Positions 12,103 to 50,205 of a stretch of DNA of 64,000 bases are shown one piece after another. Numbering within the stretch: the stretch's first letter is position 1; each line of letters begins with the position of its first letter. Source of the stretch: Manduca sexta (lineage: Eukaryota; Arthropoda; Insecta; Lepidoptera; Sphingidae). The stretch spans positions 4,276,983 to 4,340,982 of the forward strand of contig NC_051138.1 of NCBI RefSeq assembly GCF_014839805.1, written 5' to 3'. Position numbers and translations under genes: made by a program. The notes beneath the pieces are model-generated. The model searched no databases and was not told the origin of the DNA. It saw nothing but the letters and a program-made list of their open reading frames with translations.

Positions 12103-12519
12103 TTACGCGATTTGATTCAAGTATTCGATGAAGTCGTTGGAGAAGAGCTGGAGATGCGACGGCTCGGTGAACGGCGTGCGGCGAGGGACGCCGCAGCCGC
12201 CCAGAGTCGGCCGCTCCACCGGCTTCGGCCTCAGTGCCGCCAGGTAGCGCTCGGCCAAGGACTCGCCGAGACTCATTGCGAGCGTCTCTGGACTCACCCC
12301 AAGTAGCGACAGCGACTCAGTGATACTCGCTAACGTCGGTGTCAGATACTTAGAGGCCGGCTCTTCTACTACCGTTTCGGGCGCTCGGGACGCCATGCTC
12401 GTGTTGACAACGGGACGTAATGCGGGGGGCGAGGCGCGACGCGGAGGCGACGGGGCTAGGTTCCACGCGTCTGCCGAAGAAGGGGGGGTGCCAGGAGAGG
12501 TTCCTGGCACCGCCGACTG
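12103..12519 (-). CDS. hdc: headcase readthrough extension, 138 codons after the UAA
   Basis: Directly after the first stop the same frame continues open for 138 codons, starting QSAVPGTSPGTPPSSADAW, to TAA at 12105-12103. There is no ATG near its beginning, so separate initiation is unlikely. Residues about 1-60 are rich in Pro, Ser, Ala and Arg and look disordered. Residues about 60-100 are Leu/Ser/Glu-rich and may form amphipathic helices. The tail ends HLQLFSNDFIEYLNQIA. GC content stays at the level of the coding exons up to the second stop and then falls to the AT-rich background, as expected for translated sequence. In Drosophila, UAA readthrough makes a long functional Headcase; that extension is several hundred residues, so this one is much shorter. 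Translation here is an inference from the sequence; a readthrough-independent splice isoform is the main alternative. Confidence 0.82.
   Translation of the reverse strand, partial: QSAVPGTSPGTPPSSADAWNLAPSPPRRASPPALRPVVNTSMASRAPETVVEEPASKYLTPTLASITESLSLLGVSPETLAMSLGESLAERYLAALRPKPVERPTLGGCGVPRRTPFTEPSHLQLFSNDFIEYLNQIA
12487..12511 (-). promoter_or_regulatory. hdc: RNA hairpin 8 nt after the headcase UAA (readthrough stimulator)
   Basis: On the minus strand GGTGCCAGGA (12511-12502) pairs perfectly with TCCTGGCACC (12496-12487) around the loop ACCTC (12501-12497). Seven of the ten pairs are G-C. Eight nucleotides (12519-12512) separate it from the UAA, about the distance at which stimulatory structures meet a ribosome paused on a stop codon. 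Drosophila headcase is known to need a stem-loop just downstream of its UAA. The hairpin is also in frame within the extension, where it encodes the short near-repeat GTSPGT, so coding constraint alone does not explain perfect pairing. Confidence 0.85.
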
Positions 12520-12690
12520 TTATGGCCACTGCTGGAACAGCGGGAAGACCCGTTTCGTGAAGCAGTAAGTGAGCGGCTTCACGAAGTGCGTATCCGTGAC
12601 GCGGCACTGCGGGCACATCACTGGATGCGAGTAGTCCGAGTAGTTGAGCCGCTGTTGCGGGTGCAGGAGCGGCTTGTAGCAGTTGTTGCA
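12520..12690 (-). CDS. hdc: headcase terminal exon, first part up to the UAA stop
   Basis: Fifty-six codons followed by TAA at 12522-12520. The acceptor is GTACAG before 12690, phase 0. It starts CNNCYKPLLHPQQRLNYSDY, has a second pair CPQC at exon residues 26-29, and then HFVKPL. The two cysteine pairs and HFVKPL match the last 50 or so residues of human HECA, which ends shortly after that point. The short Headcase form would therefore end here at QQWP, about where the vertebrate protein ends. The base after the stop is C, a context known to weaken termination, and an RNA hairpin follows 8 nt downstream. The exon does not end at the stop: the same frame stays open beyond it (next entry). Confidence 0.95.
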   Translation of the reverse strand, partial: CNNCYKPLLHPQQRLNYSDYSHPVMCPQCRVTDTHFVKPLTYCFTKRVFPLFQQWP

Positions 12691-12865: not shown

Positions 12866-13054
12866 CTTCAATCTTTCTGCGCAACAGGGAGTGGCCATGA
12901 AGATGTCGTAGGAGTACATGGTGCCGAGCACGAGCGAGGAGCCGTCCCACTTCTGGCCGCAGAAGCGGCAGCGTATTGTGCGGTCTGGATCGCAGCGCTC
13001 CAGGCATCCCATACACACGCACGTCAGGTATTGCGTGCGACCCTCCACTTTCAC
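12866..13054 (-). CDS. hdc: headcase coding exon, cysteine-rich core (189 bp, 63 codons)
   Basis: Sixty-three codons, phase 0 at both ends. The acceptor is TTCGCAG before 13054 and the donor is AAG followed by GTAATC after 12866. It begins VKVEGRTQYLTCVCMGC and contains cysteines at exon residues 12, 14, 17, 21, 29, 32, 57 and 58, with spacing consistent with zinc-binding knuckles. The stretch RCRFCGQKWDGSSLVLG and then TMYSYDIFMATPCCAERLK is nearly the same as the human HECA core, where WDGSW.QLGTMYTYDI.AASPCC is found. In Drosophila this half of Headcase is reported to work with Unkempt in the mTOR-linked growth pathway; that is family knowledge, not seen here. Some automatic frames start at an internal Met or run on into the 175-bp intron; the spliced reading is preferred. 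Confidence 0.96.
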
Positions 13055-13875: not shown

Positions 13876-14064
13876 CTCGACCGCGCTGCTGGTGTGCTGA
13901 CGCGGGCTAAGGAAGAAGGTACCGTCCACCAGCGGGTAGCGGTCAAACACGTGCAGCGTCTCCTTGCACAGCGCGCACGAAACACGAGGCTTGTGCTGCC
14001 CGGCGAGGGTCGACAGGATGAACAGCCGTGTATCATCGTTGCCATGGTTACCCTCGTCTTCGAT
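13876..14064 (-). CDS. hdc: headcase coding exon (189 bp, 63 codons)
   Basis: Sixty-three codons in phase 0 at both ends. The acceptor is TTGTAG before 14064 and the donor is GAG followed by GTGAGT after 13876. It starts IEDEGNHGNDDTRLFILSTL and contains a CALC pair (residues 30-33 of the exon), a likely zinc ligand pair, followed by VFDRYPLVDGTFFLSPRQH. That last block is the most recognisable Headcase signature; human HECA has a close VFEQFPLVDGTLFLSP version. The exon is GC-rich compared with the surrounding introns. The other frames over this interval are also open in part, but only this one gives a family match and joins in phase to both neighbours. Confidence 0.95.
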
Positions 14065-28292: not shown

Positions 28293-28607
28293 ATCGATGT
28301 ACAAACAAGACATCGATCGATTTAAACTAAAATGACTAAAACCTGCATGCAGGCTGTCACCAAGCTTCTATCGGTCATTGTACCACAGTGCAGCGGTTAT
28401 GTAACAATAGTTTATAGCTACATAGGTTTAAGATAAAAACTTCAATGGCCATCCATTGAAGTATGAGATAGTTCTGATTTAATGCGGCAGATCGAACTAT
28501 CTCGAACAATGTTATCAGCCATTGGCCAGGTTTTCCAACTGTGTTGCGTTCAATATCTGCTCGATCAGTGTTTTAATCCATTAAACAGCACAGAGGGACA
28601 CTGTGCT
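28293..28607. other. Cluster of five perfect inverted repeats
   Basis: Pairs seen: ATCGATGT 28293-28300 with 28310-28317; the palindrome CCTGCATGCAGG 28342-28353; ACTTCAATGG 28439-28448 with 28453-28462 (loop CCAT); GAGATAGTTC 28465-28474 with 28494-28503, with GAT/ATC continuing the stem after a one-base bulge; and AGCACAG 28587-28593 with 28601-28607. The third and fourth are two bases apart. No coding frame or known repeat explains them. Confidence 0.6.
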
Positions 28608-40703: not shown

Positions 40704-41045
40704 AATTAGCCATGTCACTTATTCATCTTATCATTATACTGGTTTACATTGCAGCCAGTATAACTACTGGACATAATAAGACTTAACACCTTATGTTATA
40801 CCAATTAGCCATGTCACTTGTTCATCTCATCATTACACTGGTTTACACTGTCGCCAGTGTAGCTACTGGACATAATAAGACTTAACATGTCATATCACAG
40901 GATAGCGAGCGCAGTGAAATACCAAACAATACTTTGTAATTTAAGGAATTAGATGGTATTTCTACTGTTTATGAGCGTATCGTTTGCCATCAGGCGAACG
41001 GCAAGCTCGTCTCGTCATTCAAAGCAACAAGAAAAAATATACCAA
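40704..41045 (+). repeat. SINE-like lepidopteran repeat with its head region duplicated in tandem
   Basis: The head unit AATTAGCCATGTCACTT...CATAATAAGACTTAAC occurs twice with an offset of 99 bases (40704-40802 and 40803-40890). The second copy runs on into the body: GGATAGCGAGCGCAGTGAAA, CCATCAGGCGAACGGCAAGC, TCGTCTCGTCATTCAAAGCA, and an A-rich end near 41035. The body also occurs at 61511-61672. Confidence 0.7.
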
Positions 41046-48429: not shown

Positions 48430-48526
48430 CTTGATCTGATATGAGTTGACTTTGTGCTTCGGAAGGAGATTGAAAGTTGAGAAGTCCAGTCTTCTGGAGA
48501 ATATCCCGTTGGCGCCTGCGCCAGCC
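48430..48526 (-). CDS. hdc: headcase coding exon, upstream visible exon (97 bp)
   Basis: The first base completes a codon begun in an upstream exon (phase 2 intron). Then follow 32 codons, beginning AGAGANGIFSRRLDF and ending LLPKHKVNSYQIK. On the minus strand the acceptor is a T-rich tract ending in GACAG before 48526, and the donor is AAG followed by GTAAGA after 48430. The residues match the HECA segment containing the LRRLD..ELL..IPRHKLNTF motif, which lies just before the cysteine-rich half. Joined to the next exon the text reads QIK/IEDEGNHGNDDTR, which parallels the acidic linker of the human protein in place and character. The exon sits 34 kb from the next one and 15 kb inside the window edge with no other coding sequence near it. 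Without the splice match it would look like a chance frame. Confidence 0.9.
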
Positions 48527-50205
48527 CTGTCAAAAAAACAAAAATCCACATTACAAGACTACATTTATTCAGAGCACGAAAAATCGGCAGCCATTTTAAA
48601 TCCATTTTTCATCTGGCTAAATACGGGCATCGTGGTACAGACGATTAATTTCATTCCCATCTGTTCGTGGCTCGTTCTCAGACAATTTTCAACTTATAAT
48701 CCGCGTGGCACTGATGAATCGAAATCCAATTTGGCCTTGAACGAGTTATGTGGCAGGCACAAAATACGAAAGGATTACTAAAGACTAATATGGACAAAAA
48801 TGTATTATCCGGCTCGAAGGACCATGCTGAACAAAGATTTGGATTAAACCCTTTGAGTTTTATTCAACGTGTCGATATACCTTCTGTTTATTTTATTCTA
48901 TAGTAAAATGGTTTTGTTGTTAATCGGATTACGTGGATTCGCAGCAAGCACGCCGACTCGCAGGTTTTATGCGGATGCGAACGCAACACAGTTTTATTAA
49001 TCAACTGGCATTTCGCCCGAGTTTCTTTTTTGCTCCGCTACAATAGCAGCACAAAATGAGCATAACTCGTTCGATTGATTTCTTTATAAATATCGCGATC
49101 ATTTCATCCTGATAATATACATATTTATATACTTAATTGCAGCTTCAAGAACGATCAAAAAAGATTATAAATGTTCGCAGCTCATAAACACGTATAAATC
49201 AATTGCTATTTTGAGCTAAAAAGCGTGGAAGATTACACTATTCTGAACCTCATTTACATTAATAATCTTATTCAAAGGATGCAAAGGATACTAATAATAA
49301 TATGACGCATTCTATTATACTAGTCTAGACATACTTAGTACCCAAATTTGATTTCCTATCACATCATATGCCATCGTATATGTGGAATCCATAAAAATGT
49401 CACTTCTGTGTATGATTTGCATTCTATAAACAACATTCACATATAAACCACGATTTAAAATATAAATAAAATTCTATTTAAATAATCTATTTCTCAGTAG
49501 GTACAAAACAATACGACGCAAAGGTTTTTTTAACCGCTTAAAGCGCCGTGCAAAAAGCAATGCAGAATTTCAAGGTAGCGAAAAAAAGAACTTGTTTTTT
49601 CATTGTCAAGGTCAGTCGAATTAGATACCGGCTTTCGTATCTCGTCCAGGCGTGTCAACACAGCTCTGTTTACATTCGCGTGCAGATAAAAAAACCAACG
49701 ATTATATTGTCACCGCGAATATTTTGTCATGTTATCAACATTATTTAAATGGTATCGACGTATTCGATATTTAAAACCGAAAACCATAGATAACGTGAAC
49801 GCATATAGAATTTTAAAATTTTGTTCTGGTCCACAGATTACGTATTTTTAATTCGATACTTTGCGATGCGAATATCGATTACCTATTTGGAAATTTACAT
49901 GATCAAGTAGTGCGTATTTTACGTCGTATTTCATATGTAAAGCGTGAGTTGAAAGCGAACTTATAGGTATTCCTTTATCAGAACGTTAATATTCAAATTC
50001 GGCGAGACTCCGCGTCAGCGGAAGTACGGTCGACTTAATAAGGGTAACCTTGGACACACAATGGGTTATTTTAATTTCATCAACATAAAAAATATCTACA
50101 ACACACACTGCCCTATTTACGGTAAGTAAGTTACTTGCACGTGCGTGAGACTGTTCGTCTTTAAATAGTAAGTTTTAGTCATTTTTTTTCTTTTTAAACC
50201 TATAC

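Follow-up and report, generated by a model that had tools for sequence, protein, structure and literature searches.

The question raised by this locus is whether headcase in Lepidoptera, as in Drosophila, gives rise to a second and longer protein when ribosomes pass its stop codon. Stop-codon readthrough of Drosophila headcase (hdc) has reportedly been described (Steneberg et al. 1998; Steneberg and Samakovlis 2001). We analyzed a stretch of 64 kb of DNA, hereafter the window, in which the Headcase frame, located on the minus strand, terminates at a UAA (12520..12522) with C as the next base. This stop, the proposed readthrough site, is separated by an 8-nt spacer, CAGTCGGC (= CAGUCGGC; 12512..12519), from a perfect 10-bp hairpin with a 5-nt loop (12487..12511), and the frame then stays open for 138 codons up to a final TAA (12103..12519, all on the minus strand). 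The UAA, the following C, the 8-nt gap, the hairpin and the 138-codon frame had all been pointed out in an earlier, sequence-only reading of this DNA, and each of them was exact when the sequence was read again.

On the evidence of a Headcase domain covering the full PF16002 profile, the gene is headcase. The segments 14064-13876, 13054-12866 and 12690-12520, once spliced, matched the Pfam Headcase family (PF16002) over profile positions 34-198 of 198 (E 1.1e-75), and the end of the profile (198/198) was reached 16 residues ahead of the stop. The exons, all on the minus strand, were located by tblastn with a lepidopteran headcase. The domain starts in exon RAGAGANGIFSRRLDFSTFNLLPKHKVNSYQIK (48430..48528), which is 97% identical to P0045, covers PF16002 positions 3-34 (E 3.8e-10) and is followed by GTAAGA, its 5′ boundary being approximate. 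The next exons are IEDEGNHG...SSAVE (13876..14064; acceptor TTGTAG, donor GTGAGT) and VKVEGRTQY...CCAERLK (12866..13054; acceptor TTCGCAG, then GTAATC), and the Headcase part of the last exon (12523..12690), which extends to the end of PF16002, finishes with ...FPLFQQWP. A motif scan of the window for the N-terminal exon was negative, and when residues 1-196 of P0045, which bear HECA_N (PF15353), were compared with the window by tblastn, nothing matched at E <= 1; the HECA_N part is probably located beyond these 64 kb. Among the best 120 of 334 matches, the closest named Headcase proteins were lepidopteran, with 84-97% identity. The identification as a probable lepidopteran headcase made in the first reading was thus borne out by the Pfam profile, by tblastn and by the nearest named relatives, and the DNA of the window very probably comes from a lepidopteran. 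One of the records retrieved, the headcase-like P0120 of Megachile rotundata, also carries sugar-transporter/MFS domains and likely represents a fusion of gene models. In a Pfam scan of 10 of the 21 open frames of at least 100 aa in the window, the headcase exon was the sole match, and scans of the window with Rfam (gathering thresholds) and for tRNAs found nothing. Also, a 99-bp unit is tandemly duplicated at 40704-40887 of the window (1.9 copies, 90% matches).

The end of the short Headcase protein falls at the same place in related insects. All eight lepidopteran-named Headcase clusters listed (P0043-P0050) have QQWP as their C-terminus, the Headcase of the caddisfly Arctopsyche also terminates with ...QQWP, and WP is likewise the ending of many further insect entries in the list of 120. 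The position of the stop is therefore conserved among the lepidopteran headcases listed, as judged from protein records. Two full-length searches were made, one at 177-561 aa (best 120 of 334 matches) and one at 347-1102 aa (best 120 of 491, scored on the 7993 candidates sharing most words), and no lepidopteran protein joining the Headcase body to the tail was among the matches listed. Such a joined protein, if present, should outscore the matches listed and rank at the top.

Taken alone, the openness of the frame carries little weight, since the GC content of this stretch is high. The frame remained open in 2.8% of 2000 shuffles that preserved the dinucleotides of the extension. The tail frame contains no internal stop, and the other two forward frames contain 9 and 2. 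The GC content of the tail is far higher than that of the 3′ flank. The first 41 codons of the tail show GC values of 0.66, 0.78 and 0.66 by codon position, without third-position excess, and the corresponding values in the Headcase exons are 0.55, 0.44 and 0.81. The evidence from composition for coding in the tail is thus mixed.

Comparative evidence came from relatives of the tail. Of 125 candidates found with the 138-aa tail as query, 42 proteins reached E <= 0.01, with 55-85% identity. A species name is attached to 21 of the 42, and all of these species are Lepidoptera. The named records are labelled as unnamed, uncharacterized or hypothetical proteins (one as 'Jg25009 protein'), and none of the labels shown, some of which are truncated, refers to headcase. 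In 20 of the 21, the orphan protein starts at the methionine of codon 42, the first in-frame ATG of the extension (12394..12396, minus strand), and P0004 begins slightly upstream. Five species occur in both the headcase and the tail lists (Pieris macdunnoughi, Aricia agestis, Papilio xuthus, Battus philenor and Choristoneura fumiferana). Since the two records sit on contigs of equal length in 5/5 of them, the headcase and tail 'genes' very likely share one contig in these species.

Eight rows of the tail alignment reach the codons of the hairpin (P0001-P0003, P0005, P0007, P0008, P0012 and P0017); they are protein rows alone, and none belongs to the 21 records with a species name. Each of the eight starts at the counterpart of the Val-4 codon of the tail, which is taken as Met, presumably because the gene caller accepts GTG or TTG starts. 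The Val-4 codon is probably ATG, GTG or TTG in these rows, which would be a selection effect on the sample. Their identity to the window is 86% over residues 5-41 vs 74% over residues 42-138; within the first of these blocks it is 94% at residues 5-12 (60/64 cells) and 84% at residues 13-41. Residues 24-41 are 97% identical in 10 rows. Four changes were found in residues 5-12: the Thr of the loop codon became Ala in one row and Pro in another, and Pro-5 became Ser in two rows. Length differences among the rows amount to whole codons, and P0017 contains an in-frame WGLAPSPP repeat. Protein-level conservation in these eight rows covers the tail frame from the codons of the hairpin on. Conservation of the frame after the stop in related moths, proposed as a check on the readthrough idea, was found at the protein level in the 42 relatives. 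A conserved short end together with a conserved in-frame tail is what comparison of relatives typically shows for functional readthrough, which is thus supported here from protein comparison. No relative was found when viral_contigs (91 pattern matches) and genome_contigs (41) were searched with a pattern of the tail alignment, in one scan each. Pfam returned no family in the 138-aa tail. The best PDB sequence match to the tail (E 0.035) was taken as chance.

The tail was modelled by AlphaFold2 with 43 sequences, and confidence in the model as a whole is low (mean pLDDT 64.2, pTM 0.31). Locally confident helices were predicted at residues 63-96 and 128-137, and the remainder was poorly predicted. 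The first of these regions is a conserved helical module (extension residues 63-96; 12232..12333, minus strand) with predicted helices at 63-72, 77-84 and 86-96; pLDDT is 79-91 in the block of residues 61-100, and residues 60-97 are 88% identical across 42 rows. The tail ends with a conserved C-terminal motif, LQLFSNDFIEYLNQIA (extension residues 122-138; 12106..12156, minus strand), which is 89% identical in 42 rows and aligns to the C-terminus of mosquito Headcase tails. From these predictions, the tail would consist of a proline-rich linker, then a small module of helices and finally a helix at the C-terminus, and the predicted modules are perhaps binding sites.

The hairpin (12511-12487, minus strand) corresponds to GGTGCCAGGA-ACCTC-TCCTGGCACC, in which the arms are exact reverse complements, and it lies in the codons of (A)VPGTSPGT. 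The perfect stem starts at +12, counting the U of the stop as +1, and the predicted fold lengthens it by further flanking pairs, from +9. A scan of the whole 64-kb window for perfect Watson-Crick stems (10 bp or longer, loops of 3-8 nt) found four, and the arms of the post-stop hairpin are the richest in G+C of the four (0.70 vs 0.00, 0.10 and 0.40). A further perfect hairpin, with 10 bp and a loop of 4 nt, is present at 28439-28462 of the window, outside the exons identified. When the extension was subjected to 2000 dinucleotide shuffles, such a stem occurred anywhere in 0.3% and started within about 15 nt of the stop in none. For the 63 nt that follow the stop, the predicted folding energy is -26.4 kcal/mol (z -2.8), a value equalled in 0/200 dinucleotide shuffles; for the first 100 nt, z is -2.5 (2/200 shuffles as good), and for 71 nt spanning the stop it is -3.3 (0/200). 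A stable RNA stem-loop is predicted directly after the stop codon.

Not all of this palindrome is free to vary. The peptide VPG..SPGT dictates 6 of the 10 stem pairs whatever the codons; the remaining 4 pair third base to third base (wobble-wobble), in the codons of Ala3 and Thr11, Val4 and Gly10, Pro5 and Pro9, and Gly6 and Ser8, and all four match. A perfect stem was obtained in 0.42% of synonymous recodings with equal codons and in 0.73% with local usage, and full pairing with G-U allowed in 1.9% and 2.7%, respectively. Recodings as stable as the native first 39 nt amounted to 0.4% (equal codons) and 4.2% (local usage); over 60 nt they amounted to 3% and 19%, the codon counts behind the second figure including one out-of-frame exon. 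Against recodings weighted by codon usage, the stability of the hairpin is thus modest. The sequence-only reading had taken a perfect stem inside coding sequence as a sign of selection on the RNA structure. This claim stands in part: the four free pairs all match, as happens in 0.4-0.7% of recodings, and because the other six pairs are forced by the peptide, selection on the stem is suggested and not proven.

A tested point of comparison exists in the Drosophila gene dfr/vvl. In that study (PMC13170385), readthrough fell when +12 to +57 was deleted or the stem was shifted, and stem stability and distance were shown by experiment to set its level. The two elements are alike in having a stem-loop from about +9 after the stop and within coding sequence; they differ in that dfr/vvl has a UAG stop and a longer, bulged stem that was experimentally tested, whereas the stem described here is predicted. 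The agreement in spacing (stem at +12, flanking pairs from +9) counts for the readthrough explanation, and the lower readthrough potential of UAA relative to UGA and UAG, according to PMC8417969, counts against it. As a stimulator of readthrough, the hairpin is plausible but less certain.

Readthrough could indeed be real and the hairpin incidental, the stop context or trans factors being what acts and the palindrome being a product of the repeated PGT peptide. This reading, compatible with the rest, deserves serious attention even if we lean away from it. It draws on the six pairs forced by amino acids, on the 2-3% of synonymous recodings that pair fully with G-U, and on a comparison of Anopheles with Drosophila in which readthrough was retained even where structures had been gained or lost (PMC5100048). 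It has to account, however, for a perfect stem that just 0.4-0.7% of recodings reproduce, for a spacing that matches the tested dfr element, and for the high identity of residues 5-12, where the changes are restricted to the loop codon and to one Pro-to-Ser substitution, which could keep its pair as G-U if coded UCN.

Two further explanations would dispense with readthrough. Alternative splicing could remove the stop, with an intron that ends at TAACAG (AG 12518-12517) or elsewhere and joins Headcase to the tail. The TAACAG right after the stop provides a phase-0 AG at which in-frame GT...AG pairs of 66, 84 and 105 nt end, deleting the stop; 17 in-frame intron candidates of 50-250 nt lie inside the last exon and the tail, and the stop is avoided in the gene models of three mosquitoes (Aedes and Anopheles). 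Nevertheless, the donors are poor by eye (e.g., TTC/GTGAAG), the acceptor is without a pyrimidine tract, and such introns excise part of the conserved Headcase end. The donor of the 66-nt candidate is the Val codon of HFVKPL, which is replaced by Ile, and so is without GT, in Choristoneura (P0050), yet this species keeps the tail (P0015). Moreover, none of the matches listed is a joined lepidopteran isoform, and splicing would leave the hairpin unexplained. We consider splicing unlikely. More improbable still is that the tail represents an independent 97-aa protein initiated at ATG 12396, whether it has a gene of its own or arises on the hdc mRNA through reinitiation or internal entry. The start of nearly all named lepidopteran records at the codon-42 Met is what speaks for it. 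What argues against independent initiation is that conservation ahead of this Met equals or exceeds that behind it, the 86% of residues 5-41 (8 rows) and the 97% of residues 24-41 (10 rows) all lying upstream. The tail frame is also continuous with Headcase, and the equal-length contigs in the five shared species do not fit a separate gene. If readthrough is right, the codon-42 start of the orphan records is an annotation artefact.

The Drosophila hdc extension is about 430 aa long, with a stimulating region of about 80 nt; here the extension has 138 aa and the hairpin is compact, at 25 nt. The two cases share an orthologous gene, a stop shortly after the Headcase domain, a downstream stem-loop and an in-frame extension; the ends of the short forms differ, D. 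melanogaster having ...LPTLA and Lepidoptera ...QQWP. Among the matches listed in the second search (best 120 of 491), no Drosophila hdc extension was found, the Drosophila entries being short forms of 616-653 aa. In mosquitoes, the models P0055 (Aedes aegypti), P0069 (Anopheles melas) and P0166 (Anopheles ziemanni) extend past the usual Q[QH]WP end. Their tails measure 306-438 aa, and the stop is apparently avoided via predicted introns; these are probably readthrough tails forced into splice models. They are of low complexity and, unlike the 138-aa lepidopteran tail, modelled so as to avoid the stop, but the Aedes tail (P0055) terminates with MQLFSDDFLSYLNINN, which resembles the lepidopteran LQLFSNDFIEYLNQIA. 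A tblastn search with P0055 matched the tail in the window with E 0.025. In a profile comparison of lepidopteran and mosquito tails, the C-termini alone aligned (15 columns, E 4.3e-4, hhalign probability 34%). The score of this alignment, 33.2, was reached by 0/150 column shuffles (best 19.7), and the reversed alignment scored 13.9. The motif is degenerate in P0069 and P0166, that is, in two of the three mosquito tails. With moderate confidence, these comparisons point to an ancestral tail with a conserved C-terminus in mosquitoes and Lepidoptera.

Taken as a whole, a default short Headcase together with hairpin-aided readthrough of the UAA, giving a form longer by 138 codons, is in our view very probably the correct explanation. 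We conclude from sequence comparison that this locus would be the lepidopteran counterpart of Drosophila hdc readthrough. Most ribosomes would stop at the UAA (12522-12520) and release the short Headcase ending in ...FPLFQQWP. A fraction would pause there, aided by the hairpin 8 nt downstream, decode the UAA with a near-cognate tRNA and go on for 138 codons. The longer Headcase would thereby gain the proline-rich linker, the small conserved helical module and the conserved C-terminal motif. The gene identity, the stop, the hairpin and the conservation of both the short end and the tail are direct observations; from these we infer that ribosomes translate the tail by reading through the stop, along with the parts played by the hairpin and the tail. 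The original suggestion that hdc-type recoding operates here is supported by the gene identity, the conserved tail frame and the common QQWP end, and production of the long form would follow from it.

This recoding event is known in the orthologous gene and, as far as the literature searched shows, would be new in Lepidoptera. No report of lepidopteran headcase readthrough was found in that literature at the level of titles and abstract openings. A Colias paper mentions headcase twice (PMC12204629), and the authors of an Automeris genome paper state that they knew of no documentation of how frequent readthrough is in Lepidoptera (PMC10917498). We give about even chances to a broader proposal, in which headcase readthrough would be ancestral to Diptera and Lepidoptera with a shared C-terminal tail motif, the tail would be about 138 aa in Lepidoptera and annotated as an orphan in at least 20 species, and the peptide (V)PG-T-SPGT would be dual-coded, serving as linker and as both arms of the hairpin. 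If this is true, a classic readthrough event would be dated before the split of Diptera and Lepidoptera, and a short conserved tail with a compact hairpin would become available for functional and mechanistic tests. Also, a widespread orphan protein of Lepidoptera would be reassigned to headcase.
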